Shown: one piece after another, positions 2,949-19,637 of the stretch | How the letters are laid out: every line of letters starts with the position of its first letter | Numbering within the stretch: position 1 is the stretch's first letter | Assembly (NCBI GenBank): GCA_020251025.1 | Contig: JADCDI010000060.1 | Coordinates: 1 to 60,551 of the forward strand | Direction of reading: 5' to 3' | DNA length: 60,551 nucleotides | Source: Rhodobacter sp. | GTDB taxonomy: Bacteria > Pseudomonadota > Alphaproteobacteria > Rhodobacterales > Rhodobacteraceae | Translations under genes and position numbers: made by a program | The notes under the pieces: model-generated | Seen by the model: the letters and a program-made list of their open reading frames with translations, nothing else | Databases searched by the model: none | Told to the model about the DNA's origin: nothing

Positions 2949-3005
2949 GGCCTTGTCTGTTCCTGTTCTTTTCCGGCCAGGGCACCTGTGGCCGGTCAGT
3001 TTGGC

Positions 3006-3029
3006 GCGGGACGGCCGGGGCCGTCCCGC
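3006..3029 (-). other. Intercistronic hairpin after the substrate-binding protein gene
   Basis: GCGGGACGGCC and its exact complement form an 11 bp stem with a 2-nt loop, or 10 bp with a 4-nt loop, 19 bp after the stop of the binding-protein gene and before the SDR. On the minus strand no T-run follows, so it looks like an mRNA-stabilising or attenuating hairpin rather than a full terminator. Such a hairpin often keeps binding-protein mRNA more abundant than the rest of its operon. Confidence 0.65.
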
Positions 3030-3047
3030 TTTGCTGTCAGACCCGGA

Positions 3048-4028: not shown

Positions 4029-4087
4029 TATGTGCTCCTCCCTTTCATTGGTTGCACGGGTCGTTGGTGAAACGGGTCACGGCGGGG

Positions 4088-5104
4088 TCACTCGCGGCGA
4101 TGACGCGCCTGGTCAAGCATCACTGCGGCAACGATCAGCACGCCCTTGATGACCTGCTGGTAGTAGGATTCGACCCCCATCAGATCGAGGCCGTTGTTGA
4201 CGACGCTGATCAGCAGCGCACCGATCAGCGTGCCGGTCACGCGGCCGACACCGCCGGCAAGGCTGGTGCCGCCGATCACGACCGCCGCAATCGCATCAAG
4301 CTCGTAGGCGATCCCCGCCTGTGGCAGGGCGGATCCGGTCCGCGCCGCCAGCATCATGCCGGCAAGGCCCGCAAGGCCGCCCGAGATCACATAGACCAGA
4401 AACCGGATGCGGCGCACGTTGATGCCGGACACGACGGCGGCGTGGGGGTTGCCGCCTGCGGCATAGACATGCCTGCCGAAACGGGTGGCCGACAGAACCC
4501 ACCAGGCGATCAGAAAGACCACGGCAAAGATGATCACCAGAACGGGAATGCCCGCGACCTCGCCCGTACCGATGACGCGGAAACCGGGGGTCAGTTCGGG
4601 AACCGGCCTGCCGCCCCCATAAAGCAGCGTCAGACCGCGGGCAGCCGACAGCATGCCCAGGGTGGCGACGAAAGCGGGCACGGCAAAACGCGACACCACA
4701 ATACCGGAAACGGCACCGCAGGCCATGCCGACCGAAAGCCCGGCGGCAATCGCAAGCAGTGCAGGATAGGGCCCGCCCGCAACCCCCGCAGTCGACGAGG
4801 TGGTGGCCAGCGAAGCCGCGACGATACCGGCCAAAGCGACCACCGATCCCACCGACAGGTCGATGCCGCGGGTCAGGATCACAAAGGTCATCCCGACCGC
4901 CAGAATGCCGTTGATCGACGTCTGGCGCAGGACATTGGTGATGTTGCGCGCCGTCAGAAAGTATTCATTCACGACAGCCAGCACGAGGCAGACCAGAACC
5001 AAAGCAACCAGAATGCCGTATTTCTGGCCGTAGACGGCAAGACGGCGCTTCAGGCCCGCGCCGCGTCCCTCGGTGCCCGGTGCAACGGCCTGCTTTGCTT
5101 CCAT
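4088..5104 (-). CDS. Sugar ABC transporter permease (CUT2/RbsC type)
   Basis: An inner-membrane permease of about 338 residues, BPD_transp_2 family, with roughly ten hydrophobic segments. GMTFVILTRGIDLSVGSVVALAG near residue 80 and AAVVIGGTSLAGGVGRVTGT near 275 are hallmarks of ribose-type permeases. ATG at 5104 is preferred; a GTG directly before it is an alternative start, with AGAGGA serving either. It lies between the ATPase and binding-protein genes and would form a homodimeric channel for the same substrate. Confidence 0.93.
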   Translation of the reverse strand: MEAKQAVAPGTEGRGAGLKRRLAVYGQKYGILVALVLVCLVLAVVNEYFLTARNITNVLRQTSINGILAVGMTFVILTRGIDLSVGSVVALAGIVAASLATTSSTAGVAGGPYPALLAIAAGLSVGMACGAVSGIVVSRFAVPAFVATLGMLSAARGLTLLYGGGRPVPELTPGFRVIGTGEVAGIPVLVIIFAVVFLIAWWVLSATRFGRHVYAAGGNPHAAVVSGINVRRIRFLVYVISGGLAGLAGMMLAARTGSALPQAGIAYELDAIAAVVIGGTSLAGGVGRVTGTLIGALLISVVNNGLDLMGVESYYQQVIKGVLIVAAVMLDQARHRRE

Positions 5105-5131
5105 CACGTCGTTCCTCTCAACGCCCGGTTC

Positions 5132-6613
5132 TCAGGCTGCCAGATGTACCAGCCGGTCGGCCGACAGGTCGGTGCGCGACAGCTCTCCCGATACGCGCCC
5201 GTCCCGCATCACGACGGCACGGTCAGCCATACCCACGACTTCATCCGTTTCCGACGAGATCATGATCACCGCCCCGCCGGCCGAGGCGAAATCCGACATC
5301 ACGCGGTAAATCTCGCGCTTGGCGCCAACGTCGACACCCCGCGTCGGCTCGTCCAGCAACAGCACCTTCGGCGCGGTCAGGAACCATTTGCCAAGGACCA
5401 CCTTCTGCTGGTTTCCCCCCGACAATCCCGCCACTTCCAGACGGTCGCTTGCCGTCTTGATGCGGAACCTGTCGATCATCTCGCGCGCCGACTGGCTTTC
5501 GCGGCGTCCGCTCATGACCGGACCCACGCCCAGAAAGGGCAGATGGGCCATGCAGATGTTGTCACGCACGCTGGCCGACAACACGAGGCCACTGCCCTTG
5601 CGGTCTTCGGTCACGAAAGCCAGACCAAGCCTGATCGCCTCTGCGGGAGAGGAGACGGAAATCTTGCGGCCATCCAGCACCACCTCGCCCCCCCGGTCCT
5701 CGACCAGGCCGAAGAGACGTTCGAATATCTCGCTGCGCCCCGACCCCATCAGACCGAAGATCGCCAGAATTTCGCCACGGCGCACCTCGAAGCTTACGTC
5801 CCGGACATGATTGGTGGAATTGAGGCCGCGGACAGACAGCAGCGTTTCGTCACCCGGCGTATTCGTCTTGACAAATTCCTCCCTGAGCGGCCGGCCGACA
5901 ATCATCTGGATCAACTGCTCGCGGCTGACGTTCGCCATGCTGCCGCTGTCCACAAAGGCCCCGTCCCGGAACACGGTGAAGGTGTCTGCGATCTGAAAGA
6001 TTTCGGACAGCCGGTGGCTGACGTAGATGATCCCCTTGCCCTTGCGCTTCAGCGTCCGGATGGCCGCAAAAAGCTGATCCGCCTCTGCCTCGCCCAGCGC
6101 CGAGGTCGGCTCGTCCATGATGATGATCTCGGCGTCATAGCTCAGCGCCTTGGCGATTTCGACCAGTTGCAGCTTGGCGACGTTCAGGTTCATCATCAGC
6201 GTCCGCGCATCGATGTCGAAGTGCAGATCATCCAGCAGCGATTGCGCCATGCTGTTCATGCTGCGAAAGTCGATCCGGCCGAACCCGGCCAGCGGCTCGC
6301 GTCCCAGAAAGATGTTCTCGGCCACCGACATCGCCGGAACCGGGCTCAGTTCCTGCTCGATGATCGAGATGCCGGCCGCAAGCGCCTCGCGCGGGCTGCG
6401 GAAGTTCACCTCGGCCCCGTTTCGCCTTATAACGCCCGAGTCGCGGGCCTGAATGCCCATGATGATGGACAGAAGGGTGGATTTGCCGGCGCCGTTGCCG
6501 CCGCAAAGCGCATGCACTGAGCCGCGTTCAAGCGCGAAGCTGCCGTTCGACAGGGCCGCGACGCCGCCGAACGACTTGGTCACCCCCCCGACTTCCAGCA
6601 GCTTCGGCTGCAT
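5132..6613 (-). CDS. Sugar ABC transporter ATP-binding protein (two ABC domains, RbsA type)
   Basis: About 493 residues with two tandem ABC domains, as in ribose/xylose (CUT2) importers. The first domain has Walker A GGNGAGKST near residue 40 and Walker B IIIMDEPTSALGE. The second has the signature LSGGNQQKVVLGKW and LLLDEPTRGVDVGAK. Start at ATG 6613 is chosen because GGGGGA stands 7 bases ahead; a longer in-frame version would begin at 6640. First gene of the minus operon, transcribed away from rpiB. Drives import together with the permease at 4088 and the binding protein at 3048. Confidence 0.94.
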   Translation of the reverse strand: MQPKLLEVGGVTKSFGGVAALSNGSFALERGSVHALCGGNGAGKSTLLSIIMGIQARDSGVIRRNGAEVNFRSPREALAAGISIIEQELSPVPAMSVAENIFLGREPLAGFGRIDFRSMNSMAQSLLDDLHFDIDARTLMMNLNVAKLQLVEIAKALSYDAEIIIMDEPTSALGEAEADQLFAAIRTLKRKGKGIIYVSHRLSEIFQIADTFTVFRDGAFVDSGSMANVSREQLIQMIVGRPLREEFVKTNTPGDETLLSVRGLNSTNHVRDVSFEVRRGEILAIFGLMGSGRSEIFERLFGLVEDRGGEVVLDGRKISVSSPAEAIRLGLAFVTEDRKGSGLVLSASVRDNICMAHLPFLGVGPVMSGRRESQSAREMIDRFRIKTASDRLEVAGLSGGNQQKVVLGKWFLTAPKVLLLDEPTRGVDVGAKREIYRVMSDFASAGGAVIMISSETDEVVGMADRAVVMRDGRVSGELSRTDLSADRLVHLAA

Positions 6614-6632
6614 CGTTTTCCCCCATAAACTT

Positions 6633-6657
6633 TTGCACACTATCTGCGCACATGCAA
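6633..6657. promoter_or_regulatory. Candidate operator between the divergent ABC and rpiB operons
   Basis: TTGCA and TGCAA half-sites are separated by 15 bases, 20 bp upstream of the chosen ABC ATPase start, in the 237 bp divergent region. The SorC-type regulator encoded at 7324 is the obvious candidate binder. This is pattern-based only; short inverted repeats arise by chance. Confidence 0.3.
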
Positions 6658-6799
6658 GACGCTGTCAAGCGAGTCCTTCTTGCCTTTGCTGCCCTTGGCC
6701 GACGGCTGAATGTTTGGCAATGGCTTGTGATTTTGCTCTTTCGTCCGATTGGCTGCAAGGGCGCTGGCCGGCTGATCGGCGGGCAAAGGCGCAAGCCGG

Positions 6800-6827
6800 T
6801 TGACAATTGCACAGCAGGCGTTCAAAT
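6800..6827 (+). promoter_or_regulatory. Putative rpiB promoter
   Basis: A perfect TTGACA (6800-6805) followed after 16 bases by TCAAAT (6822-6827), a 4/6 match to the -10 consensus. It lies 23 bp before the start of the RpiB-family gene, whose ribosome site AAAGGAGG is strong. The predicted leader would be short. Confidence 0.45.
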
Positions 6828-6850
6828 GATCGGCAACAAAGGAGGCGCGC

Positions 6851-7306
6851 ATGCGTGTTGCGATCGGCTGTGACGAGGCAGGTTTTGACCTGAAGGAGCT
6901 GCTCAGAACGCACATCGCCGCGCTTGGTCACAGCGTGACGGATTTCGGCGTCCAAAGGGGCGAAACCGCCCTTTATCCCGACATTGCCTTTGCGGTGGCC
7001 ACGGACGTCGCGCAAGGCGGGCACGAGCGGGCAGTCCTGATCTGCGGCACGGGAATCGGCGTCTGCATCAGCGCAAACAAGGTGCGCGGCATCCGCGCGG
7101 CCCAGGCGCATGACTGCTATTCGGCCGAGCGCGCGCAGAAAAGCAACAACGCCCAGATCATATGTCTCGGTGCGCGCGTGATCGGTCCCGAACTTGCAAG
7201 AAGCGTCGTTTCATCATTCCTTGGGTCATCGTTCGAACATGGCCGGTCCGGTCCCAAGGTTGACAGGATCATTGAATACGAAAAAGCCCAAAGCCGGGCA
7301 CCCTGA
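6851..7306 (+). CDS. RpiB/LacAB-family sugar-phosphate isomerase
   Basis: A protein of 151 residues of the ribose-5-phosphate isomerase B fold. ICGTGIGVCISANK near residue 64 contains the catalytic cysteine, and SNNAQIICLGARVIG matches the family. The usual N-terminal Asp-His-Ala-Gly motif reads CDEAG (residues 8-12), with Glu in place of His, so the substrate may differ from ribose 5-phosphate. Next to a ketose kinase and polyol dehydrogenase it could interconvert a tetrulose phosphate and erythrose 4-phosphate, as RpiB-type isomerases do in known erythritol/threitol pathways (inference). It is 17 bp upstream of the SorC regulator. Confidence 0.88.
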   Translation: MRVAIGCDEAGFDLKELLRTHIAALGHSVTDFGVQRGETALYPDIAFAVATDVAQGGHERAVLICGTGIGVCISANKVRGIRAAQAHDCYSAERAQKSNNAQIICLGARVIGPELARSVVSSFLGSSFEHGRSGPKVDRIIEYEKAQSRAP

Positions 7307-7323
7307 GACAAAGGAGCCGCTGT

Positions 7324-8313
7324 TTGCCCGCGCCCGGCAGTTCAGATGCGACCCAGATGGAAACGCCGGAGTATGGCCTTCTGTCCGAGATCGCCCGGCG
7401 GTATTACATCGAAGGGGAAACGCAGGATGGCATCGCCCGGGCGCTTGACCTTTCGCGCATGAAGGTCAACCGGATGATACGGGAGGCACAGGAGGCCGGC
7501 CTTGTCGAGATCCGGGTGCGGTTTCACTCTTCGCAGACGCGCGAGCTGGAACGCGACCTGTGCGACCGTTTCGGGCTGAAGCACCTGCTGATCGCGCCAG
7601 GGTCCCAGTCCCCCGACCAGCAGCGGCGCAATGTGGCGATGACGGTCACCCACTTTCTTGAATCCAATCTGCGCGAAAACCTGATCGTCGCCGTGGGAAT
7701 GGGTCGCAATGTTGCGGCTGTGGCCGAAAATCAGGCGTCACGCACCTTTCAGTCGCTGACCTTCGTGTCCGGCAGCGGCGGTGCGGCCGAGGCCGGTTCC
7801 GAAGGCAACGCCGACCACATCTGCCGGAACCTCGCCCGCCGCTTCGGCGGCAATGCCGTCACCCTTTATGCCCCGGCCTATGTCCCCGAGGCCGACCTGC
7901 GCGAAAGCCTGATGCGCAATGCCACGGTGCGCCGCACCCTGAACCTTGCCCGCAGCGCCGATTTCGCACTGGTTGGCATCGGCGATCTGGGCCCGGACAG
8001 CCACATGGCGCGCATGGGCTGGTTCTCGCGCGAGGAACTGCAAAAGGCGCAGGACGCGAAGGTGGTCGGCGACCTGATGGGGTACGATTTTTTCGATGCG
8101 GGCGGCACCCCCTGCAACGACGCCCTTGGGGGGCGGGTCATCGGGCTGACGCGCGAGGATCTGCAGCGCATATCCACCACAATTGCAATCGCGTCCGAGC
8201 CAAGCAAGGCGATGGCGATTCTGGGTGCCCTGAGGACGGGTACGATCGACGTGCTTGCGACCTCTCTCAGCAACTGCCTGGCCATTCAAGGCATGCTGGG
8301 GGCGGGCCTTTGA
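7324..8313 (+). CDS. SorC/DeoR-type sugar-binding transcriptional regulator
   Basis: About 329 residues: an N-terminal helix-turn-helix (YYIEGETQDGIARALDLSRMKVNRMI, near 28-53) and a C-terminal sugar-phosphate-binding domain resembling GlcN6P isomerase. VGMGRNVAAV, FVSGSGGA and VGIGDLG are signatures of the SorC family, which includes EryD of erythritol catabolism. Start is TTG at 7324, supported by AAGGAG seven bases upstream; an ATG at 7357 is the fallback. Likely senses a phosphorylated intermediate and controls both this operon and the divergent ABC/dha operon. Confidence 0.9.
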   Translation: MPAPGSSDATQMETPEYGLLSEIARRYYIEGETQDGIARALDLSRMKVNRMIREAQEAGLVEIRVRFHSSQTRELERDLCDRFGLKHLLIAPGSQSPDQQRRNVAMTVTHFLESNLRENLIVAVGMGRNVAAVAENQASRTFQSLTFVSGSGGAAEAGSEGNADHICRNLARRFGGNAVTLYAPAYVPEADLRESLMRNATVRRTLNLARSADFALVGIGDLGPDSHMARMGWFSREELQKAQDAKVVGDLMGYDFFDAGGTPCNDALGGRVIGLTREDLQRISTTIAIASEPSKAMAILGALRTGTIDVLATSLSNCLAIQGMLGAGL

Positions 8314-8693: not shown

Positions 8694-9590
8694 TCACGAT
8701 GTCTGTCCGAACCGGCAGGCCGGCATGCCGCAAACGCCGGGATCAACGGCGAAAAGCGCCCCTTCCTGGGGGTTGGCGGCCAGGTGTTCGGGCGTCATGG
8801 TGAACCGGGCCGAGGTGACGAAAAGCGTGGACAGGTTCGCGCCGCCAAAGCAGCAACTGGTCGGCCAGGAGCAGGGAAGCTCGATGATCGTCTCGACTGT
8901 TCCGTCCGGTCCGGTGCAGGTCAGGCAACCGCCGCCTGCCACCCGGGCCGTCCACAATCTGCCGTCGGCGTCAAGACAGGATCCGTCGGGAAGGCCGCGC
9001 GGAAACCCGGATTGCAGGGTCGTGCCCTGGTAAAGCATGCCGTCGTCGCCAATCCGGTAGGCATAGATCGTGTTGGCCAGCGTGTCGGCCGTCAACAACC
9101 CGCCAGAGCGGGGAAAGACCATCGTGTTCGTGATGCCGAACAGGTCGTCGGTCACCCGCATCACCCGTCCACCCGGCAGGCAGCGATAGATGGTGCCGGT
9201 TGCCTGCGGGATCGCGCGCGGGCTGTCATCCCCGTTGATGTTGTTGAACATGGTGCCAACCCAGTAGGCACCGTCCGGGCCGACCGCCCCTTCGTTCAGG
9301 CGGTTGTCCGGGCGGTCGGGCTCGATTTCAACCAGGGGAACAGGCTCGTCTTTCCAGTCCCACAGGCAGATGCTGCGTTCCATCCCCACGATGGCCCCGC
9401 CGTCGCTGCGCAGTCCGATCGATGTCGGCCGCCCCTTCACCGGCCAAAGCTGATGACGCCCCGTCACGGGATCAAGCGCATGAATGCGCCGGCCGATGAT
9501 ATCAACCCAGACGAGCCGCTGGCGCTGATCGTCCCACAGGGCACTTTCCCCCACGATATCGCAGGCCGCAAGCACCAGTCTGGCGTCCAT
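8694..9590 (-). CDS. SMP-30/gluconolactonase/LRE family protein
   Basis: A six-bladed beta-propeller of about 298 residues of the SMP-30 family, which hydrolyses sugar lactones to sugar acids with a divalent metal. GESALWDDQRQRLVWVDI at the N-terminus carries the metal-binding Glu. RPTSIGLRSDGG, RLNEGAVGPDGAYWVGTM (with its Asn) and LADTLANTIYAY-like segments follow; LPDGSCLDADGRLW carries the catalytic Asp. ATG 9590, preceded by GGGAAGA, is the start. It diverges from the GntR regulator and sits beside an acid-sugar dehydratase, so lactone hydrolysis would feed that enzyme (inference). Confidence 0.9.
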   Translation of the reverse strand: MDARLVLAACDIVGESALWDDQRQRLVWVDIIGRRIHALDPVTGRHQLWPVKGRPTSIGLRSDGGAIVGMERSICLWDWKDEPVPLVEIEPDRPDNRLNEGAVGPDGAYWVGTMFNNINGDDSPRAIPQATGTIYRCLPGGRVMRVTDDLFGITNTMVFPRSGGLLTADTLANTIYAYRIGDDGMLYQGTTLQSGFPRGLPDGSCLDADGRLWTARVAGGGCLTCTGPDGTVETIIELPCSWPTSCCFGGANLSTLFVTSARFTMTPEHLAANPQEGALFAVDPGVCGMPACRFGQTS

Positions 9591-9612
9591 CTGTCTTCCC
9601 CTCACGACTCCG

Positions 9613-9671
9613 TTGACAGGCAGGATGGGCAAGAGATACACACAATTCAAGCAGAACCTGTCATACAGGTT
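9613..9671 (+). promoter_or_regulatory. Putative GntR-gene promoter with adjoining operator palindrome
   Basis: TTGACA (9613-9618) is followed after 16 bases by GATACA (9635-9640, 3/6 to -10). Just downstream lies AACCTG-TCATA-CAGGTT (9655-9671), a perfect 6 bp inverted repeat of the size and symmetry used by FadR-type GntR regulators. The layout fits autorepression and control of the divergent SMP-30 gene. It also implies that translation starts downstream, at TTG 9685. Confidence 0.55.
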
Positions 9672-9684
9672 TGGGGGCGGGGAT

Positions 9685-10386
9685 TTGAAACACGTCGGCA
9701 GCCTGGGCCTGGTCGGAGATGCCATCGGGGCGATCTCGCGGCATATCCGCGAGAAAGACCTGATGCCGGGCGACAAGCTTCCGTCCGAGGCGCTGTTGTC
9801 GAAAGAGCTGAACGTGTCGCGAACCGTGGTGCGCGAGGCATTCCGGTCCCTGGCGGCCATGCGGATCATCGAACTGGCGACCGGCAAACGCGCAACCGTG
9901 GCGCAGATCGACCATGGCGCCATGTCGCTGATGATCGAGCACGGCGTTCATACCGACCAGATCAACATCCAGCAGATCTACGACGTGCGCCGCACCATCG
10001 AAACGCGGATTGTCACGCTGGCTGCGATCCGTCGCAGCGATGCCCAGGCGGCCGAGATTGTGGAACTTGCCGAAAAGATGCGGGGCAGCATTGCCGATCC
10101 GGCCGCGCTGATGGAACATGATCTGGCCTTTCACACCGCGCTGGCGCGTGCATCGCGGAACCCGGTCTATTCCCTTCTTATCGGTTCGTTTCAGGGCATC
10201 ACCCGGCAGACCTGGCCGGTCGGCTGGAAAAGCCGCCAGACCCGGGAATCGCGCGATCTGATGGTTGCAACCCATGCCGAAATTGCCCGGGCCGTCGCCG
10301 CCGGCGAACCGGAAAAGGCCACAACGGCGATGTCACTGCATTTCGATGAAAGCATCCGGGCCCTGCTGACGGCCGGGCTGTCATGA
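9685..10386 (+). CDS. GntR/FadR-family transcriptional regulator
   Basis: About 233 residues: a winged helix-turn-helix (PGDKLPSEALLSKELNVSRTVVREAFRSLAAMRII, near 28-63) and a C-terminal FCD ligand domain with metal-type residues (D in MEHDLAFHTAL, H in ATHAEI, H in SLHFDES). TTG 9685 is preferred because GGGGCGGGGA lies directly before it and the promoter and palindrome occupy 9613-9671; ATG 9625 would put them inside the gene. Stop overlaps the next start (ATGA), so it is cotranslated with the dehydratase. Sugar-acid-responsive FCD regulators commonly control adjacent catabolic operons. Confidence 0.88.
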   Translation: MKHVGSLGLVGDAIGAISRHIREKDLMPGDKLPSEALLSKELNVSRTVVREAFRSLAAMRIIELATGKRATVAQIDHGAMSLMIEHGVHTDQINIQQIYDVRRTIETRIVTLAAIRRSDAQAAEIVELAEKMRGSIADPAALMEHDLAFHTALARASRNPVYSLLIGSFQGITRQTWPVGWKSRQTRESRDLMVATHAEIARAVAAGEPEKATTAMSLHFDESIRALLTAGLS

Positions 10387-11585
10387 AGATCACCGCCATT
10401 GAAACGATCCGTATCGCCGAACGGCCCAACCTGCTGTGGTTGCGCGTTCACACGGATGAAGGGATCACGGGGCTGGGCGAAACCTTTTTCGGCGCCGCCA
10501 CGGCAGAGGCGCATGTCCATGAATACATCGCCCCCCGCGTGCTGGGCCGCGACCCGTTCGAGATTGACCGTCTGGCTGCCGATCTGGTGGGTTATCTGGG
10601 GTTCCGGTCCTCGGGGGCCGAGATGCGGGGCAATTCGGCCTTTGACATCGCTTTGTGGGACCTGTTCGGCAAGGCGATGAACCAGCCCATCGCGCAGTTG
10701 CTTGGCGGCTTCACGCGGCGCGAGATCCGCACCTACAACACCTGCGCCGGGACGGAATATGTCAAGAAGACCTCGGGGCAGGTTACGGCCAATTACGGCA
10801 TCGGTGCGGGCGCTGACTGTGATGATCTGAACGCTTTCCTGACCTGTGCCGATGAACTGGCCCATTCCCTGCTGGAAGAGGGGATCACGGCGATGAAGAT
10901 CTGGCCCTTTGACCAGATGGCCGAGGCCACGCGCGGCCAATACATTTCGGGGCCCGATCTGCGCAAAGGACTTGAACCCTTTGAAAAAATCCGGGCTGCC
11001 GTAAATGACCGGATCGACATCATGGTCGAGTTTCATTCGATGTGGCAGCTTTTGCCCGCGATGCAGATCGCCGGGGCGCTGGCGCCCTATCGGACCTTCT
11101 GGCACGAGGACCCGATCAGGATGGACAGTCTTTCCAGCCTGAAACGCTATGCCGCGCAATCGCCCGCGCCGATCTCTGCGTCCGAGACGCTGGCGACCCG
11201 CTGGGGTTTTCGCGACCTTCTGGAAACCGGGGCGGCGGGCGTTGTGATGCTTGACCTGTCCTGGTGCGGCGGACTGTCCGAGGCGCGCAAGATCGCCGCG
11301 ATGGCCGAAGCCTGGCATCTGCCGGTGGCCCCGCATGACTGCACGGGGCCGGTCGTGCTGTGCGCCAGCACGCATCTGTCGCTGAACGCCCCGAACGCGC
11401 TGGTGCAGGAAAGCGTGCGCGCCTTTTACCGTACCTGGTACCGCGATCTGGTCACGGCATTGCCAGAGGTCAGGAACGGGATGATAACGGTTCCACCCGG
11501 ACCGGGTTTGGGGATGGATCTGCATCCCGACCTTGACCGGGCCTTCACGGCGTCGAGACGGAAATCCGACGCAACCACGGTCTGA
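10383..11585 (+). CDS. Enolase-superfamily (mandelate racemase group) sugar-acid dehydratase
   Basis: A protein of 400 residues with the capping domain and TIM barrel of the mandelate racemase/muconate lactonizing group. Three metal ligands are spaced 26 residues apart: E216 (VEFHS), E242 (WHEDP) and E268 (SASET). D291 (MLDLSW) and H318 (APHDC) form the His-Asp dyad, with K172 nearby. Such enzymes dehydrate aldonates or uronates to 2-keto-3-deoxy acids; the exact substrate is not readable. The neighbouring lactonase and importer support sugar-acid metabolism. Start overlaps the GntR stop by 4 bp. Confidence 0.88.
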   Translation: MKITAIETIRIAERPNLLWLRVHTDEGITGLGETFFGAATAEAHVHEYIAPRVLGRDPFEIDRLAADLVGYLGFRSSGAEMRGNSAFDIALWDLFGKAMNQPIAQLLGGFTRREIRTYNTCAGTEYVKKTSGQVTANYGIGAGADCDDLNAFLTCADELAHSLLEEGITAMKIWPFDQMAEATRGQYISGPDLRKGLEPFEKIRAAVNDRIDIMVEFHSMWQLLPAMQIAGALAPYRTFWHEDPIRMDSLSSLKRYAAQSPAPISASETLATRWGFRDLLETGAAGVVMLDLSWCGGLSEARKIAAMAEAWHLPVAPHDCTGPVVLCASTHLSLNAPNALVQESVRAFYRTWYRDLVTALPEVRNGMITVPPGPGLGMDLHPDLDRAFTASRRKSDATTV

Positions 11586-11621
11586 CAAGGCCGCAATCTG
11601 TCACAGGGGAGGAGTAAAAGA

Positions 11622-12599
11622 ATGAAGAAGATCAAGGGACTGGCCATTGCGGCCCTGATGTCTGCCGCGTCGACCGCAGCGGTCGCACAAGACCCGCTGG
11701 ATATTGCGTTCACCGTCCATTCGGGCGCGTCGAACACCTTCTGGCAGGCAGTCCAGAAGGGTTATGAAGATGCCTGTGCAAAGATTGGCGCAAATTGCCA
11801 GATGATCTATGTGCAGACCGACGGATCGATCCCCGAGCAGGTCGCGAACATGGAAGCGGCCCTGGCACGCAGCCCGGATGCGCTGATCACCTCGATCGTC
11901 GACAACACGGCCTTTGACGATGTCATCCAGCGCGCGCGTGATGCAGGCGTGATCGTCATTGCCTCCAACGTCGACGATCTGGAAGGGGCGGCCGGCAATG
12001 CCAGGCAGGCCTTTGTCGGTCAGGGCTTTGTCCCTGCGGGCTATGGTCTGGCGCGGGCACAATGGGCCAACATGCCCGCCGAAGGCCCCTTGCACATTCT
12101 GGTCGGCGTTTCCGGCCCGGGCCAGAACTGGTCGGAATCCCGCGCGCTTGGCATCACGAACTATCTGGACGAGATGATCGCGGCCAATCCCGACCGTGCG
12201 ATCACCTACGAAAAGATCGATTCCGGCACCGACCTTGCCATCGTGGCCGACCGCGTGGGCGCCTACCTTGCAGCCCGTCCCGAAACCAACGCCTATTTCG
12301 ATACGGGCTTCTGGCATGCAGGTGTGGCAGGGGTGCTTCGCGACCGCGGGATCGAGCCGGGCAAGGTTCTTCTGGCCGGCTTCGACATCGTTCCGGTTGT
12401 TCTGGACGAAATGGATGCAGGTTACATCCAGGTCGAAGTCGATCAGCAGCCCTACATGCAGGGTTTCCTGCCTGTGATGATGACCTACCTGTCCAAGACG
12501 GTGGGCCTTTCCCCCGCTGACATCAACACCGGCGAGGCCCTGGTCTACCCGGCGGATGTGGCGGCTGTGCGCAGCCTGTCGGAACAGGGCCTGCGCTGA
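11622..12599 (+). CDS. Sugar ABC transporter substrate-binding protein (second system)
   Basis: A type-1 periplasmic binding protein of 325 residues. The signal peptide MKKIKGLAIAALMSAASTAA ends in VAQ. DIAFTVHSGASNTFWQAVQKGYEDAC and MEAALARSPDALITSIVDNTAFD are typical of ribose/inositol-type binders. A strong GGGGAGGAG ribosome site precedes the ATG. It heads a binding protein-permease-ATPase set distinct from the first one at 3048-6613. Ligand unknown; lactonase, dehydratase and oxygenase neighbours suggest a modified sugar or cyclitol. Confidence 0.91.
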   Translation: MKKIKGLAIAALMSAASTAAVAQDPLDIAFTVHSGASNTFWQAVQKGYEDACAKIGANCQMIYVQTDGSIPEQVANMEAALARSPDALITSIVDNTAFDDVIQRARDAGVIVIASNVDDLEGAAGNARQAFVGQGFVPAGYGLARAQWANMPAEGPLHILVGVSGPGQNWSESRALGITNYLDEMIAANPDRAITYEKIDSGTDLAIVADRVGAYLAARPETNAYFDTGFWHAGVAGVLRDRGIEPGKVLLAGFDIVPVVLDEMDAGYIQVEVDQQPYMQGFLPVMMTYLSKTVGLSPADINTGEALVYPADVAAVRSLSEQGLR

Positions 12600-12612
12600 T
12601 CGCTGAAAGGCC

Positions 12613-12641
12613 GGCGCGGGGCCCTGCCCGGGCCCTGCGCC
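12613..12641 (+). other. Intercistronic hairpin after the second binding-protein gene
   Basis: GGCGCGGGGCCC and GGGCCCTGCGCC form a 12 bp stem with one G-T pair and a 5-nt loop, 13 bp after the binding-protein stop. No long T-run follows before the permease. It mirrors the hairpin at 3006-3029 in the first importer operon and probably raises binding-protein mRNA relative to downstream genes. Confidence 0.65.
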
Positions 12642-12673
12642 GATGCTTTGCCCCTGAATAAGGATTCGTTCCC

Positions 12674-13660
12674 ATGCGCCGCCTTGTCAAACTTGCCATG
12701 CAAAAGCCCGAACTCGCCAGCGCGATGCTTTTGCTTGTGCTTGTCGTGCTGTTTCAGATCCGGTCAGAGGGCGTCTTTCTTTCGGTCAACAACGTCCGGG
12801 GGTTCCTGGGCCTTTTGCCCGAAACGGCGCTGGTTGCCGTGGGTGTTACGCTTTTGATGATTTCGGGGGAATTCGATCTTTCCGTTGGTTCGGTCTTTGC
12901 CCTGATGCCCATGACCATGGCGGTGCTTGTTGTGGCCGGCTGGCCGTTCTGGGCGGCCGTGGCGGTGGGACTGCTTCTGTGTGCCTTTATCGGGTTTCTG
13001 AACGGCTGGCTGACGATCCGCTTTGACATCCCGTCGTTCATCACGACCCTGGGGATGCTGTTCATGGCCCGGTCGCTGACGGTGGTCATCTCGGGCGGGT
13101 TTCCGCCACGGATCAAGCCGGGCGAAGTGCCAAGCTGGATTTTTGTGGGCTTTGTCGATGACGGCGGTCTGATCCGTGCTTCGGTTCTGTGGTTCATCGC
13201 CATCGCGATACTGATCAGCCTGCTGCTGTCGCGGACCAACTTCGGCAACTGGGTGCGGGCAACCGGGGGGTTCCTGCCCGCCGCCGCAGCCATGGGGATT
13301 CCGACCGGCAAGGTGAAGATCGCCTGTTTCATGATCTGTTCGGTTCTTGCGGGTTTTGCCGGGATGATCCAGTCACTGCGCCTGAATTCCTTTCTGCCCT
13401 CGATCGGCGAGGGTATGGAACTTCAGGCTGTGGCGGCTGCCGTGATCGGCGGCACCTCTCTTGCCGGCGGGGTCGGCTCGATCATCGGCGGGTTGATCGG
13501 TGCGATCCTGATCCGTGTGATCGACAACGGTATGGTCATGTCGCAGATCGACAGCAACTGGTTCAAGTTCGCCATCGGTGCCCTGACGATTTTTGCCGTC
13601 GTCGGCAATGCCTGGCTGCGCCGCCGCGGCCGCGCCATGAAGGTGGAGACTGACAGATGA
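12674..13660 (+). CDS. Sugar ABC transporter permease (second system)
   Basis: A permease of 328 residues, BPD_transp_2 family, with about nine or ten membrane segments. GVTLLMISGEFDLSVGSVFALMP near residue 57 and AAAVIGGTSLAGGVGSIIGG near 255 are ribose-type permease signatures. Its stop overlaps the ATPase start (ATGA). It forms the channel for the importer encoded at 11622-14388. Confidence 0.93.
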   Translation: MRRLVKLAMQKPELASAMLLLVLVVLFQIRSEGVFLSVNNVRGFLGLLPETALVAVGVTLLMISGEFDLSVGSVFALMPMTMAVLVVAGWPFWAAVAVGLLLCAFIGFLNGWLTIRFDIPSFITTLGMLFMARSLTVVISGGFPPRIKPGEVPSWIFVGFVDDGGLIRASVLWFIAIAILISLLLSRTNFGNWVRATGGFLPAAAAMGIPTGKVKIACFMICSVLAGFAGMIQSLRLNSFLPSIGEGMELQAVAAAVIGGTSLAGGVGSIIGGLIGAILIRVIDNGMVMSQIDSNWFKFAIGALTIFAVVGNAWLRRRGRAMKVETDR

Positions 13661-14388
13661 ACATGCCCATCATTGAAACCCGCGATCTGCACAAATGGTA
13701 TTCGGGCGTGCATGCGCTGAAGGGCGTAAGCCTGAAGGTTGACAGCGGCGAAGCCGTGGGTCTGGTCGGGGACAACGGCGCCGGCAAATCGACGCTGATC
13801 AACATTCTGTCCGGCCTGCACCATCAGGACAGCGGCGACATTCTGGTCGAAGGCAGGCCGGCCGATATCCGCAGCCCCAAGGACGCCATGCGGCTGGGGA
13901 TCGAGACGATCTATCAGTACAATTCGATGGTGCCGCTGATGACGATATCACGCAACGTCTTTATCGGGCGCGAACCGCTGAAATGGTCCATCGGTGGCAT
14001 CGGCATTCTGGATGAACGCAAGATGCGCGAAGAATCGGTCAGGGCGATTGCCGATGTCGATCTGCACCTGCGCTCGCCCGATGCGCTTGTGGGCGAATTG
14101 TCGGGCGGGCAACGCCAGGGCGTGGCCATTGCCCGCGCCATGCACTTCAAGTCCAAGGTCATGATCCTGGACGAGCCGACGAACCACCTTTCGGTAAAGG
14201 AAACCGCCAAGGTCATCGGCTTTGTGAAAGGGCTGAAGGCGCAAGGCGTCACCTCGATCTTCATCAGTCATAACATGCACCATGTCTTTGCCTGCTGTAA
14301 CCGGATCGTCGCGATGGCGCTGGGCAAGGTTGTGCTGGACAAGCCCGCTGCCGAAACCTCGATCGAAGAAGTCTCGGCGCTTTTGTGA
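13657..14388 (+). CDS. Sugar ABC transporter ATP-binding protein, single ABC domain
   Basis: A protein of 243 residues with one complete ABC domain: Walker A GDNGAGKST near residue 37, signature LSGGQRQGVAIARAM, Walker B VMILDEPTNHLSV and the switch His in FISHNMHH. Most ribose-type importers use a fused two-domain ATPase like the one at 5132; this is a single-domain (FrcA-like) version that would act as a homodimer. The 4 bp overlap with the permease shows tight coupling. Confidence 0.93.
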   Translation: MNMPIIETRDLHKWYSGVHALKGVSLKVDSGEAVGLVGDNGAGKSTLINILSGLHHQDSGDILVEGRPADIRSPKDAMRLGIETIYQYNSMVPLMTISRNVFIGREPLKWSIGGIGILDERKMREESVRAIADVDLHLRSPDALVGELSGGQRQGVAIARAMHFKSKVMILDEPTNHLSVKETAKVIGFVKGLKAQGVTSIFISHNMHHVFACCNRIVAMALGKVVLDKPAAETSIEEVSALL

Positions 14389-14401
14389 CAGGGCGGCCAG
14401 G

Positions 14402-15106
14402 ATGGACATGAACGCGCGCCATGCACTGATCACGGGGGGCCTTGGTTCCATCGGGGCGGCCTTTGCCCAGGCCTTTGCCGCTGCCGGTGCCAGGATCACC
14501 ATCCTGGACCGGCCCGGGGCGACACCGCCCCCCGCGCATGGCTGGCTGGGGATCGATCTGGATGACCTGTCTGCGGCGCAGGCCCGTGTTGCCGCCGCCG
14601 GGCCCTTTGACATCCTGATCAACAACGCCGCGCTGATCATCAACAAACCCTTCGAAGATTTCAGCATCGGGGAATACGAAACCCAGTTGCGCGTGAACTC
14701 GGCCTCGGCCTTTGCCCTGGCCCGCGCCTGTGCGCCGGGGATGAAGGCCAAAGGCTGGGGCCGGATCATCAACCTCACCTCGCTGACCCTGAACGGCCAG
14801 TGGCAAGGTTTCGTGCCCTATGTCGCCTCGAAAGGGGCGCTTCTGGGTCTGACCAAGGGTCTGGCGCGGGAACTGGGGCCGCATGGCATCACCGTAAACG
14901 CGATCGCGCCCGGCGCCGTGGTGTCGGACGCGGAACGCCGCGTCTTTGCCGACCGGCTGGAAGAATACAACAGCTTCATCCTGGAACGCCAATGCATCAA
15001 GGCCCGCATTGAACCCCGGGATGTTGCCAGCCTGGCGCTTTTCCTTGCATCTGATGCCGCAGGGATGATCACCGGACAGAACATCGGTATCGACGGCGGA
15101 TGGTAG
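14402..15106 (+). CDS. SDR family oxidoreductase
   Basis: About 234 residues. TGGLGSIGAAFA near the N-terminus binds NAD(P), INNAALI near residue 80 matches the family, and YVASKGALLGLTKGLAREL carries the catalytic Tyr-x3-Lys. The end GQNIGIDGGW is typical. Only 13 bp follow the ATPase stop. In lactonase/dehydratase pathways such SDRs usually oxidise the sugar to the lactone, which would place it first in the route; this assignment is inference. ATG 14402 and ATG 14408 are both possible starts. Confidence 0.88.
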   Translation: MDMNARHALITGGLGSIGAAFAQAFAAAGARITILDRPGATPPPAHGWLGIDLDDLSAAQARVAAAGPFDILINNAALIINKPFEDFSIGEYETQLRVNSASAFALARACAPGMKAKGWGRIINLTSLTLNGQWQGFVPYVASKGALLGLTKGLARELGPHGITVNAIAPGAVVSDAERRVFADRLEEYNSFILERQCIKARIEPRDVASLALFLASDAAGMITGQNIGIDGGW

Positions 15107-15144
15107 GCCATGACAGACACACAGACTTTCAGCGAGGCTTCAAG

Positions 15145-16245
15145 ATGACCGCAGCTCCCTTTCCGGTAGGACAACGCGACTACAGCCTGGTCGGCCCCGA
15201 CAGCCGCCGCGCGGTGGAAATCGGACTGGCCTCGGCGGAATGGTACCACTCTGATGTGCCCCGCGCCGTGATGAAGGACCTGATGAAGCGCACCGACGGG
15301 CCCGCGATCCGCGATACGGTGCTTTGGTTTGCACTGCTGATCGGCGGGGCCTGGGGGGGGATCTATTTCTGGGGAACCTGGGCCTGTGTGCCGTTTCTGC
15401 TTGTCTACAGCGTGATCTACGGATCATCCTGCGACAGCCGCTGGCACGAATGCGGCCATGGAACCGCGTTCCGCACGCCCTGGATGAACGACGTGATCTA
15501 CCAGATCGCCAGCTTCATGGTGATGCGCAACCCCGTGACTTGGCGCTGGAGCCATGCCCGGCACCATACGGACACCTACATCGTCGGGCGCGACGCCGAA
15601 ATCGCCTGGATGCGCCCGCCCAAAACGCTGACCAATTTCCTGGCCCTGTTCGATGTGATCGGTGCCACGAGGTCCCTGTTCATTCTGGCGCGCAACGCCA
15701 CGGGCAGGCTGACGCCCGACGAGAAGGATTTTGTTCCCGAAAGCGAATGGGGCAAACTGGTTCTTGCAGCGCGGATACATATGGCGATCTATGCGGCAAC
15801 GGTCGCCGTCGCCCTTGCCACATGGTCATGGCTGCCCTTGATGCTTGTCGGGTTGCCGCGCATCTACGGCAGTTGGCACATGGTGATGTGCGGGCATTTG
15901 CAGCATGCGGGGCTGGCCGAGAATGTTCTGGATCACCGGCTGAACACCCGTACCGTCTACATGAATCCGATCAGCCGCTACATCTACTGGAACATGAACT
16001 ACCACATCGAACACCACATGTTCCCGATGGTGCCCTACCACGCCCTGCCGCGCCTGCACGAGGTTATCAAGGCCGATCTGCCGCCGCCGAACCTGTCGAT
16101 CCTTGACGGGTACCGAGAGGTCTTCGCTTCCCTGCGCCGCCAGAAGACCGACCCCGAATACTTCTTTCGCAAGACATTGCCCCCCTCTGCCAAGCCGTAC
16201 CGGGAAGAGTTCCATACCCTGAACATCGCCCGGTCGGGCACCTGA
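15145..16245 (+). CDS. Fatty-acid-desaturase-family membrane diiron oxygenase (MocD-like)
   Basis: About 366 residues. Three histidine boxes define the non-heme diiron site: H101ECGH, H137ARHH and H287IEHH; H251 and H254 may be extra ligands. Hydrophobic segments near 57-95 and 213-238 indicate an integral membrane protein. This family includes desaturases, alkane and carotene hydroxylases, and MocD of rhizopine (O-methyl-scyllo-inosamine) catabolism. The gene for a Rieske ferredoxin of the matching MocE type lies two genes on, so a hydroxylase or O-demethylase acting on the imported compound is likely rather than lipid desaturation (inference). Start is ATG 15145. Confidence 0.82.
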   Translation: MTAAPFPVGQRDYSLVGPDSRRAVEIGLASAEWYHSDVPRAVMKDLMKRTDGPAIRDTVLWFALLIGGAWGGIYFWGTWACVPFLLVYSVIYGSSCDSRWHECGHGTAFRTPWMNDVIYQIASFMVMRNPVTWRWSHARHHTDTYIVGRDAEIAWMRPPKTLTNFLALFDVIGATRSLFILARNATGRLTPDEKDFVPESEWGKLVLAARIHMAIYAATVAVALATWSWLPLMLVGLPRIYGSWHMVMCGHLQHAGLAENVLDHRLNTRTVYMNPISRYIYWNMNYHIEHHMFPMVPYHALPRLHEVIKADLPPPNLSILDGYREVFASLRRQKTDPEYFFRKTLPPSAKPYREEFHTLNIARSGT

Positions 16246-16255
16246 GGAGGCACCA

Positions 16256-17053
16256 GTGACCCGGATCAAGCCCACCATCGCCGACCTTCGCGCCCGCAAG
16301 GGCAAGGGGCAACTGACCATGCTGCGCGTCATGTCGCTGGACGAGGCGGCGGCGGCCGAAGCGGCCGGGATCGACATTGTTTCCGTTCCTGCCGATCTGG
16401 TCACCCATCCGCGCTACCGCGAAGTGGCACCGACGCTGTTTTCCATGACGGGCCAGACCCATCTGGAGGCGGGAACCCGGGACGATTATCTGCGCTGGGC
16501 CTGCAAGGTGATGCTGGCGGGGGCTGATGCCGTCTATTGCTCGGGCGGGCTTGGCACGGTGGAACATGTCGCGCGCGAACATATCCCGGTTGTCGGGCAT
16601 GTCGGGCTGGTGCCAAGCCGCGCCACATGGACCGGCGGCATGAAAGCGGTGGCCAAGACCGCCCAGGGGGCCCTTGCGCTGCTGGAAGAGGTGCGGGCCT
16701 ATGAGTCTGCCGGTGCTTTTGCCGTGGAAATCGAGGTGGTCCCGACCGAGGTGGCCAGCGAGATCAGTCGCCGGGTGGGCCTTTTGCTGTGGTCGATGGG
16801 GGCCGGGCCGGGATGTGATGCGCAGTATCTGTTTGCCGAAGACATTCTTGGTACCAATCGCGGGCACATGCCGCGCCACTCCAAGGTCTACCGCAACTTC
16901 GCCGCCGAATATGACCGTCTCCAGTCCGAGCGCATCGCGGCCTTCCGCGAGTTCATTGCGGATGTCGCCTCTTCCGCCTACCCCGGGGACAAGCATCTGG
17001 TGAAGATGTCCCCGCAGGAACTGGCCGCCTTTCACGCCGCGCTGAACAGGTAG
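16256..17053 (+). CDS. PanB-like protein (ketopantoate hydroxymethyltransferase fold) of unknown reaction
   Basis: A protein of 265 residues aligning along the PanB family (PEP mutase/isocitrate lyase-like barrel): PVVGHVGLVP near 111-120, SAGAFAVEIEVVP near 151-163 and GAGPGCDAQ near 182-190. The usual metal-binding GDS reads PAD (45-47), and the VKLEGG motif, with its lysine and acidic residue, reads VYCSGG (93-98). E160 of the ECVP-type motif is kept. It is therefore unlikely to make ketopantoate and may be a lyase or aldolase of this operon's pathway. GTG start with GAGGAGG upstream. Confidence 0.78.
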   Translation: MTRIKPTIADLRARKGKGQLTMLRVMSLDEAAAAEAAGIDIVSVPADLVTHPRYREVAPTLFSMTGQTHLEAGTRDDYLRWACKVMLAGADAVYCSGGLGTVEHVAREHIPVVGHVGLVPSRATWTGGMKAVAKTAQGALALLEEVRAYESAGAFAVEIEVVPTEVASEISRRVGLLLWSMGAGPGCDAQYLFAEDILGTNRGHMPRHSKVYRNFAAEYDRLQSERIAAFREFIADVASSAYPGDKHLVKMSPQELAAFHAALNR

Positions 17054-17073
17054 CCAAATCAAGGAGACGACAC

Positions 17074-17388
17074 ATGCCGCAATGGATCCGCGCCTGCGCG
17101 ACCGACGACATCAATCCCGAAGACCTGATCCGCTTTGATCATGACGGGGATACTTATGCCATTTACCACGCGCCGGACGGCCGCTTTTATGCCACGGCAG
17201 GCCGCTGCACGCACGAGGATGTGCACCTGTGCGACGGTCTGGTCATGGGCCACCTGATCGAATGCCCCAAGCACAATGGCCAGTTCGATTACCGCACCGG
17301 CGAGGCCAAACGATCACCTGTCTGCATCAATCTCAAGACCTTTCCGGTCAAGGTCGAAGCCGGGGAAGTCTTTATCGGACTGAACTGA
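17074..17388 (+). CDS. Rieske-type 2Fe-2S ferredoxin (MocE-like)
   Basis: A small soluble protein of 104 residues. C45-T-H47 and C64-P-K-H67 are the four Rieske cluster ligands, and it lacks any catalytic oxygenase domain. The family contains MocE, the electron carrier for MocD in rhizopine breakdown. It is the last gene of the operon, 20 bp after the PanB-like gene, with AAGGAG upstream. It probably hands electrons to the diiron oxygenase at 15145. No ferredoxin reductase is encoded nearby, so a housekeeping reductase must serve. Confidence 0.9.
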   Translation: MPQWIRACATDDINPEDLIRFDHDGDTYAIYHAPDGRFYATAGRCTHEDVHLCDGLVMGHLIECPKHNGQFDYRTGEAKRSPVCINLKTFPVKVEAGEVFIGLN

Positions 17389-17823
17389 AGGCCCTTGCAG
17401 GCCCGGTCCGCGCCCACCACCGACGGCAGGCTTCCGGCCTGTGTCGCGGTGTCCCTGCGCGGGGGTGACGGGTTTGACCGGCGTGTTCCCGACCCTTCGC
17501 CGGTTGTGCGAGGGGCGCGCCTGCCCGCGCCGGTAACAGCACGAGGCCGTTGCCGGACGGCAGGCCGGGTTGTCGTGAAAGCCGGTGGCACCCCTGATGA
17601 CGAACATCCCGGCCCGTTCGCGATGCCCCCACTTGACGTGGGCGGCCAGCGCCTGGCGCAGGTTTCCAGCGGCATTTGCGATAAAGCCCGAACGCACGGC
17701 AGCCCGTATCCGTTCGGGGGGCCGCGATGCTGCCAAGCGCTGCGTCGCTGATGAGCCTCATGCGGCAGACACGGTCTTTGCGGCGTCAGCCTTCTGGCCC
17801 ATCCATCCCGGCATCCCGGCAGG
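17389..17823. other. Gene-free stretch after the ferredoxin gene
   Basis: Several overlapping open frames exist on both strands, but none gives a recognisable protein, and all are rich in Arg, Pro and Gly as expected for non-coding high-GC DNA. It may hold the decayed remains of a gene. No convincing terminator with a T-run was seen after 17388. Confidence 0.45.
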
Positions 17824-19005
17824 TCACACCCGGTTGCGCTGGATGAAGGCGCGCATGGCCGCCAAACCTTCATCAAGATTGCTGCGCCCGTAACCGATGC
17901 GGAAGCGGTCCGCAGGGGTCGGGTTCAGCGCAGAGCCGTAGATGGAAGAGGGCAGCAGCACGACACCGGCTTGCTCGACCATGCGTCGGCAGAAGGTCTC
18001 GACGCCCTCGGCACCCAAATAGCGCGGGAACATGACCACGCCGCCATCCGGCTTGTAGGTTTCGAACAGTTCGGGGAAATCCTTCAGCAGCGCCGCCACC
18101 TTGGCGTAGCCGTCGCTTGCCACCTTGCGCGTTCTGGCCAGCACGGCCCCGCTGTGCGTCAGAGCTATAAGGGACAGTCGCTCGGACGGCGCGCTGTTGC
18201 AGATGGAAAGGTAGTGTTTGAAGCGGACCAAGCGCTCAAGCAGGTCGCGATCCCGGCAGGCGATCCATCCAATGCGCAAGCCGGGCAGGCCATAGGCCTT
18301 GCTCATCACGTTCAACGACACCCCGCGCTCATAAACGTCCGCCGTTTGTGGCAGCCGCATCGCGGGGTCCCGCTCGATCAGGCGGTACACCTCGTCCGAG
18401 AACAGCCAGATGCCGTGGCGGCGGCAAAGTTCCACCAGCGCGTCATATCGGTCGCGCTCCAGGATCTTGCCCGTCGGGTTGTGCGGGAAATTTATGTACA
18501 GGACCCGCGTGTTGGGCCGTATGGCTGCGGCAACTTGGTCGATGTTCAGCGTCCAGCCCTGCGCCTCGTCAAGCGCAACGCCGGTTGTGGCGCAGATCGA
18601 AAGCGGTATGGTTTCGGCCGACTGGTAGTTCGGCGTTATGACGATCGCATGATCGCCGGCCGACAGCAACGTCCGGTAAAGGCAGTAGACGCCTTCCTCG
18701 GCACCGGCAAAGCACAGAATATCTTCGGCCTGACATCTGTCGTAGGTCGAGGCGATCGCGGTCCGCAGATCATGGGAACCATAGGGTTCGGTGTATGAAA
18801 GGCGTGTGTCGAGAAACGCCTCGATCGCGGCATCGCCGCCCAGCGCCAGCAGTTCGCGCACCGACAGCGTCTCGGCGTCGGACGCCGTCATGTGGTAGCG
18901 TGCCGAGAATTCCCAGCGCCCAAGGTAAGTCTCCAGCCTGAATTCGGGCAGCGCGGCCGGACCGATCATGTCGGGGGCGTTGATGGAAGCGATGGGTGCG
19001 ATCAT
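17824..19005 (-). CDS. PLP-dependent class I/II aminotransferase, substrate unknown
   Basis: About 393 residues, fold-type I. TEPYGSHDLRTAIA, INFPHNPTGKIL near 180, FSDEVYR near 212 and the PLP lysine in SLNVMSKAYGLPGLRIGW near 240 are typical. ATG 19005 is preferred because AAGGAG lies 10 bases upstream. Its start overlaps the stop of the DauR/YheO-type regulator (ATGA), so the two are one unit. It somewhat resembles the capreomycidine-synthase/VioD branch of aminotransferases, but the substrate is unknown. A link to basic or D-amino acids is only suggested by the regulator type. Confidence 0.85.
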   Translation of the reverse strand: MIAPIASINAPDMIGPAALPEFRLETYLGRWEFSARYHMTASDAETLSVRELLALGGDAAIEAFLDTRLSYTEPYGSHDLRTAIASTYDRCQAEDILCFAGAEEGVYCLYRTLLSAGDHAIVITPNYQSAETIPLSICATTGVALDEAQGWTLNIDQVAAAIRPNTRVLYINFPHNPTGKILERDRYDALVELCRRHGIWLFSDEVYRLIERDPAMRLPQTADVYERGVSLNVMSKAYGLPGLRIGWIACRDRDLLERLVRFKHYLSICNSAPSERLSLIALTHSGAVLARTRKVASDGYAKVAALLKDFPELFETYKPDGGVVMFPRYLGAEGVETFCRRMVEQAGVVLLPSSIYGSALNPTPADRFRIGYGRSNLDEGLAAMRAFIQRNRV

Positions 19006-19637
19006 GCAGGGTTTTCTCCTTTGGCCCGCGCGATGGCGAGACGCTTGTACAGGGTGGCGCGTGAGCAATTGAGCAGATCGGCGACGTAATTGGCAGCGCC
19101 GCGAACGGCGAACAAACCCCGGGCGTCGATTGCGGACACCAAGTCGGTCTGCGCCTGTGCATCAAGGCCGGTGATCGTTGCCTGCCGTTCTGCCAGGACG
19201 TCGCGTGCGGCAGCGTTCACCGCCTCGCGCCAGTCGGAAGGAAACAGCGCCCCGGCTTGCGGCAGCATGGCCGCGGCAGGCATCGTCAACAGCGCGTCCA
19301 ATGCCGCCCGGGCACCTTCGATGGCGGACACATCCAGGTTGATGCACAGCAGCCAGGCAGGGCGACCGGCCCCGTCGCGCAGCACGACACTGATCGAGCG
19401 CAACGCACGCCCGTCCCGGTTCGCCTTCGCATATGGCCCGATCAGGTCGGACGGGAACGGGTGCAGATCGCCAATCTCACCAAGAGACGGATCACCGACC
19501 CGCCGCCGCGAGAAGTTGCCGGCGATGTGGACAATCCGGTTTGTGCCCAGGTCATGCACGACCGCCTCGACATGCGGCGAAAACAATGTCGCCAGCGCGT
19601 TGGCTATTCTTGCCAGGGGAGCGTGCGAATCCAACAT
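19002..19637 (-). CDS. DauR/YheO-type transcriptional regulator (PAS-like + HTH)
   Basis: A protein of 211 residues. The N-terminal half (LFSPHVEAVVHDLGTNRIVHIAGNFS onward) matches the YheO PAS-like domain, and the C-terminus (GAANYVADLLNCSRATLYKRLA, near 180-201) is a helix-turn-helix. DauR of this family represses D-arginine catabolism. It is translationally coupled to the aminotransferase gene it probably controls. TTGACA stands only about 30 bases before the ATG, so the mRNA may be nearly leaderless; the palindrome at 19644-19657 is a candidate autoregulatory site. Confidence 0.85.
   Translation of the reverse strand: MLDSHAPLARIANALATLFSPHVEAVVHDLGTNRIVHIAGNFSRRRVGDPSLGEIGDLHPFPSDLIGPYAKANRDGRALRSISVVLRDGAGRPAWLLCINLDVSAIEGARAALDALLTMPAAAMLPQAGALFPSDWREAVNAAARDVLAERQATITGLDAQAQTDLVSAIDARGLFAVRGAANYVADLLNCSRATLYKRLAIARAKGENPA

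Follow-up and report, generated by a model that had tools for sequence, protein, structure and literature searches.

Introduction

What does an oxygenase, accompanied by a relative of ketopantoate hydroxymethyltransferase (PanB), do in an operon whose other genes suggest the oxidation of a sugar? The question is raised by a gene run of Rhodobacter sp. (assembly GCA_020251025.1, contig JADCDI010000060.1, positions 1-60,551 of the forward strand; this whole stretch of 60,551 nucleotides is hereafter called the window), in which a regulator, an acid-sugar dehydratase, a sugar importer and a dehydrogenase are followed by a MocD-like oxygenase, a PanB-like protein (which we name PanL) and a MocE-family ferredoxin, the last three being referred to as the trio. 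We found that this gene set is more than a chance neighbourhood, and that the operon is made of two joined modules (a sugar-acid module and an oxygenase module). Each of its enzyme classes is already known; for the combination and for PanL as a family (a PanB paralogue) no description was found in open-access full texts (subscription journals lay mostly outside the search). Plants and algae commonly contain O-methylated sugars and inositols, and to our knowledge their demethylation by bacterial enzymes other than P450s has been little described.

Organization of the operon

The genes of the operon and its divergent neighbour are the following:

8694..9590, minus strand: SMP-30/gluconolactonase-type lactonase, divergent from the operon (Pfam SGL 6.7e-62; start trimmed to the ATG at 9590)
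9613..10386, plus strand: FCD-type GntR regulator, first in the run (FCD 4.6e-25, GntR 1.4e-14; the true start may lie slightly downstream)
10383..11585, plus strand: enolase-superfamily acid-sugar dehydratase, DHT (MR_MLE_N and MR_MLE_C, the latter 5.8e-59)
11622..12599, plus strand: periplasmic sugar-binding protein (Peripla_BP_4 1.1e-35; closest NCBIfam model that of the rhizopine-binding protein)
12674..13660, plus strand: CUT2-type sugar ATP-binding cassette (ABC) permease (BPD_transp_2 2.4e-44)
13657..14388, plus strand: sugar ABC ATPase, 243 aa (ABC_tran 7.8e-32; half of the RbsA-type model length)
14402..15106, plus strand: short-chain dehydrogenase/reductase (SDR), possibly an aldose 1-dehydrogenase (adh_short_C2 1.5e-45)
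15145..16245, plus strand: MocD-like membrane diiron oxygenase (FA_desaturase 1.3e-36; three His boxes; model fold)
16256..17053, plus strand: PanL, lacking most PanB active-site residues (Pantoate_transf 5.4e-38; active-site table; separate clade; PanB fold)
17074..17388, plus strand: MocE-family Rieske 2Fe-2S ferredoxin (Rieske 3.2e-17; TIGR02377 162.4 bits)

The gene content claimed in a first-pass annotation of this DNA was borne out in full, every named gene being an open frame with a matching Pfam domain; its stated extent (10383-17388) leaves the lactonase (8694-9590) and the GntR gene (9613-10386) outside. The gaps between plus-strand neighbours are -4, 36, 74, -4, 13, 38, 10 and 20 bp, and as these 4-bp overlaps or spacings of 10-74 bp indicate, the genes are arranged as in a single operon. 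A scan of positions 9400-17700 for promoters and terminators returned 0 promoter-like sites and 4 terminator-like ones (6.2 expected).

The MocD-like protein combines an FA_desaturase domain with three His boxes (HECGH, HARHH and HIEHH), the histidines of which are invariant in 20/20 aligned sequences, and is thereby assigned to the MocD-type membrane diiron oxygenases; its sequence matched none of the solved structures at E<=1. The ferredoxin surpasses the MocE cut-off (136.15 bits), and among the proteins of the operon set it is the only one to exceed a curated NCBIfam cut-off in the comparisons tabulated; it is the only MocE found in its genome. No MocF ferredoxin reductase is encoded in the operon; contig C57 of this genome carries a MocF-like one (43% match).

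PanL and PanB

To compare PanL with PanB we tabulated active-site positions for 117 PanL and 20 PanB sequences, leaving out copies (L038, L039, L050-L053), identical proteins, the short L046/L047 fragments and loci below L016, and keeping one in-between protein (G010) separate. The numbering and the residue roles are those of E. coli PanB, in which E181 is the general base, the His and Glu retained by PanL lie near the hydroxymethyl group, and the residues lost from PanL bind magnesium and the keto acid. Positions D45, D84, K112 and E114, conserved in 20/20 PanB, are kept in 10, 1, 0 and 0 of the 117 PanL sequences, whereas H136 and E181 are kept in all members of both sets (117/117 and 20/20). 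PanL has S46 largely or wholly replaced as well, has gained an invariant Glu (E158), and carries a Cys at position 95 in 108/117 sequences. In a tree of 105 rows (84 PanL, 20 PanB and 1 in between; many near-copies omitted, long branches flagged by the program) PanL forms a clade separate from PanB. The designation 'PanB-like' thus holds for the fold and for the Pfam match and fails for the active site, and the identity of PanL with PanB was rejected on account of the residues lost. The in-between protein (L016/L054, G010:C400) has a half-changed site, with D45 and K112 kept, D84 replaced by S, E114 by Q and E158 gained; the tree groups it with the PanB side, and it is possibly an in-between form.

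Recurrence and modularity of the trio

Searching the genome collection with PanL yielded 234 relatives, the best 80 loci of which (selected for their likeness to the window) were analysed. PanL has MocD within 5 kb in 77/80, a MocE match (at least 60 bits) was found in 55/80 and both in 54/80, gene calling in the compared loci being heuristic, so that missing small genes are no evidence of absence; the trio is therefore a recurrent unit. The GntR regulator, the dehydratase, the three importer genes (binding protein, permease and ATPase) and the SDR occur together in 10 of the 80 loci (all Rhodobacteraceae-type by their titles), five of which also have the SMP-30 lactonase, nine MocD within 5 kb of PanL and six MocE. 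The linkage of oxygenase and PanL to the sugar genes in relatives, the absence of which would have refuted the earlier interpretation, holds in these 10 loci, the only ones of the 80 to carry the dehydratase.

Since the 80 loci had been picked for likeness to the window, the counts were repeated in wider samples. Among 385 genomes of the class we found 26 PanL places (21 genomes), 11 with MocD within 5 kb, and 39 MocD places (25 genomes), 11 with PanL; among 299 genomes of the phylum there were 23 PanL places (16 with MocD) and 32 MocD places (15 with PanL). The union of both samples, own genome excluded, holds 40 PanL places, 20 with MocD, and MocD was present in 10/20 PanL genomes as against 24/384 genomes (1.5e-8, genomes being taken as independent). 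The PanL-MocD link is strong and obligatory in neither direction, these counts ruling out that PanL always needs MocD or that MocD always needs PanL.

Many of the remaining PanL loci have the trio after MalK-like ATPases, a MocA-type dehydrogenase, a TIM-barrel isomerase, a ribose-type importer and a DUF4432 protein. The plasmids pSymB of S. meliloti and pRL11 of R. leguminosarum each carry a LacI gene and, after it on the opposite strand, MocD, MocE, a flavin adenine dinucleotide (FAD) reductase and PanL; R. grahamii has MocD, MocE, reductase and PanL in the same order. MocE and PanL stand among MocA/TIM-barrel genes in L190, followed by inositol-type PfkB-DUF2090 and KduI/IolB genes; LacI, MocD, MocE and PanL are accompanied by IlvD, TIM barrel, MocA and KduI/IolB in L208, and LacI, MocD, MocE, MocF and PanL by MocA, a class II aldolase and a PfkB kinase in L226. 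Locus L201 (importer, MocD, MocF, MocE, PanL, second MocD, FA_hydroxylase, SMP-30 lactonase and IlvD dehydratase) repeats the logic of the window with a different dehydratase family, L203 contains MocD, GH4 and PanL, and L204 has MocD, MocE, MocF and PanL with a glycine betaine-type binding protein (OpuAC). Adjacent PanL and MocD-like genes occur in a GC-poor 1.4 Mb genome (L205, 8204-9972; guanine-cytosine (GC) content 32% here), with a ring-hydroxylating Rieske gene near them. The own genome holds a second locus (L036, G000:C114, 10220-12846) in which two tandem PanL genes and MocD (59%) lie beside a sugar importer. The presence of the trio in S. meliloti, in R. leguminosarum and beside other importers rules out that it is exclusive to this operon, and the tie to one sugar route that had been read into it gives way to that of an add-on, found with inositol genes, with other importers or alone with LacI. 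The pair of L205 is also present in two further genomes of the same genus, and the layout of L036 is repeated in a same-genus genome (L037).

Where PanL had no MocD within 5 kb (18 loci; a place in G469 was left out), another iron oxygenase was seen in 6/18, 9-459 bp away, the search seeds having been taken from these same loci, and none of these oxygenase types within 5 kb in 12/18. The oxygenases are FA_hydroxylase in L229 and L232 (the latter with MocE), Rieske in L195, and PhyH in L191 (with TauD), L193 and L202; around 20 dehydratase loci taken as a control there were 2 PhyH matches, both weaker and 2.5-3.1 kb away. In L193 (5046-7254; G227, GC-poor) PanL stands next to a PhyH dioxygenase and to a dehydratase that is 51% like that of the window, with an FAA-hydrolase gene near, and the dehydratase-PanL link is here repeated with another oxygenase. 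Two tandem PanL genes stand beside two PhyH dioxygenase genes in L202 (8231-11558).

The sugar-acid module

The best NCBIfam match of the dehydratase is galactonate dehydratase (198.8 bits, cut-off 311), 13 other models falling likewise below their cut-offs, and its closest solved chains are 4dx3/4dxk (4dx3 775.7 bits) and 2pod, for which the depositors give the superfamily name only. The SDR is nearest to FabG-type models and then to D-xylose 1-dehydrogenase (second-best, 159.2 bits, cut-off 400). The YtfR, xylose and RbsA models align their first half to the full length of the ATPase. The binding protein scores 118.9 bits against NF052284 (rhizopine-binding protein), below the cut-off of 420, and among solved structures it matches general sugar-binding proteins only (best 3rot, 1.8e-20), which indicate no substrate. 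Because of the nearest models of the SDR and the dehydratase, and because an aldose 1-epimerase gene lies between SDR and MocD in two relatives (L059 and L060), the gene set suggests the degradation of a free aldose through lactone, aldonate and 2-keto-3-deoxy acid; the previously proposed order of intermediates fits the genes and gains from the epimerase. The Pfam scan of the operon genes detected neither an aldolase nor a kinase for the 2-keto-3-deoxy acid.

The dehydratase has a match (E<=1e-120) in 36 of the 385 class genomes, and 20 of these neighbourhoods were examined. One of them (L169, G051) contains the lactonase, the dehydratase, the SDR and all three importer genes (binding protein, permease and ATPase) and lacks MocD, PanL and MocE; a second enolase-superfamily gene is also present there, and neither PanL nor MocD was detected in the G051 genome at the cut-offs applied; the sugar module is therefore able to stand alone. 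The remaining 19/20 neighbourhoods lose the sugar set, several of them showing (as read from translations) TRAP-type transporters and LacI regulators.

Relation to known systems

Non-phosphorylative aldose oxidation proceeds by a dehydrogenase, a lactonase and an acid dehydratase; the operon shares an SDR, an SMP-30 lactonase and an enolase-superfamily dehydratase with it, and differs by the joined oxygenase trio. The mocDEF genes of the rhizopine systems (mocB, mocR) of Sinorhizobium meliloti and Rhizobium leguminosarum, said to demethylate rhizopine in work by Bahar in 1998, resemble the operon in the MocD-type oxygenase, the MocE-family ferredoxin, the nearest model of the binding protein and the MocF-like reductase (here elsewhere in the genome). 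The window has an FCD-GntR regulator instead of MocR, a lactonase/acid-dehydratase route and PanL; its regulator reaches 24.9 bits with rhizopine_MocR (cut-off 650), and its binding protein falls short of the cut-off for the rhizopine-binding protein. Marine bacteria reportedly O-demethylate 6-O-methyl-galactose with a P450; were the operon to act on a methyl group, both systems would strip it from a sugar with an oxygenase, a ferredoxin and a reductase, the window having a membrane diiron enzyme in place of the P450, and PanL in addition.

Proposed function and its alternatives

We tentatively propose, at slightly short of an even chance, that an O-methylated aldose is imported and loses its methyl group through hydroxylation by MocD and MocE, the one-carbon product being dealt with by PanL. 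In the first module (under FCD-GntR control) the binding protein, permease and ATPase would import a reducing aldose, which the SDR would oxidise to a lactone, the SMP-30 protein open to an aldonate and DHT dehydrate to a 2-keto-3-deoxy acid. In the second (MocD, MocE and PanL, with the MocF-like reductase supplied from another contig) MocD, a membrane diiron hydroxylase, would most likely attack the methyl of an O-methylated sugar and yield a product that falls apart into free sugar and formaldehyde. In PanL the PanB fold is retained, as are the His and Glu near the hydroxymethyl group, and the residues for magnesium and keto acid are lost; most likely it would accept the one-carbon unit, as hydroxymethyl or formaldehyde, and possibly pass it to tetrahydrofolate. 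If this is so, the name 3-methyl-2-oxobutanoate hydroxymethyltransferase is wrong for many genes of Rhizobium, Sinorhizobium, Mesorhizobium and Rhodobacteraceae, which belong to a family with another function, and the substrates of rhizopine-named genes may be methyl-cyclitols and sugars that are common in plants.

Published facts on mocDEF are compatible with demethylation. In S. meliloti 1021, SM_b20817-20820 are named LacI, mocD, mocE and mocF (PMC11387232), and in R. mesoamericanum mocDEF homologues (BN77v1_0504-0506) go up 1.53-2.11-fold with an exudate whose top component is pinitol (145 uM; PMC5789663). Gluconic acid (114 uM) and fructose (110 uM) nevertheless come close to pinitol in this exudate, and its authors infer rhizopine use (PMC5789663). 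In P. syringae mocDEF lies beside xylA2 and the other moc genes are lacking (PMC5132102); demethylation, if true, could explain such rhizopine-named genes in strains and settings without the remaining rhizopine genes.

The main rival, which we judge unlikely, is that the carbon oxidised by MocD belongs to the ring or chain of the sugar (giving e.g. a keto sugar) and that PanL is a sugar-skeleton lyase or isomerase acting on the product, no methyl being involved. It gains support from four operons outside the class (L209-L212) that have a protein of 280-300 residues at the place of PanL, the one scanned being a weak xylose-isomerase-like match.

A broader view of PanL, to which we give about the same low likelihood, would make it a new family serving as a general one-carbon partner of oxidative demethylases, working with dissimilar iron oxygenases (MocD, FA_hydroxylase, PhyH and Rieske) and passing hydroxymethyl or formaldehyde into the bound one-carbon pool, with the MocDEF-PanL plasmid unit as a pinitol/ononitol demethylation system; cells would then free the methylated sugar, cyclitol or betaine and also save its methyl group.

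It is more doubtful still that the trio is a separate pathway, merely co-transcribed and acting on another compound (lipid, betaine or cyclitol): the LacI and MocD-MocE-MocF-PanL units of pSymB and pRL11, which lack adjoining sugar enzymes, the trio-less module of L169 and the OpuAC neighbour in L204 speak for it, but in 10 loci the sugar module and trio-type genes have stayed together, and several unrelated arrangements have sugar or cyclitol genes as neighbours of the trio. That PanL is an ordinary ketopantoate hydroxymethyltransferase for vitamin B5 synthesis, as its Pfam match and the annotation of the plasmid records would have it, is highly improbable given its missing D84, K112 and E114, its own clade, and another, more distant PanB-like protein on C66 of the same genome (71 bits, 37%) within the PanB score range.

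Neighbouring genes

Directly past the operon, on the minus strand (17824-19637), lies an aminotransferase gene related to the PRK07324, GntC and VioD models (all below cut-off), beside a small gene that no NCBIfam model matched; the arrangement is kept in L055 and L056. On the other side (520-8313) a divergent cluster resembles those for D-threitol/tetritol use, with genes for DhaL, a DhaK-like protein, a GolD/DthD-family dehydrogenase, a ribose-type ABC importer, an RpiB/erythrulose-4-phosphate isomerase-like protein and a SorC/DeoR-type regulator, the DhaL, GolD/DthD and RpiB models being above cut-off and the others below.

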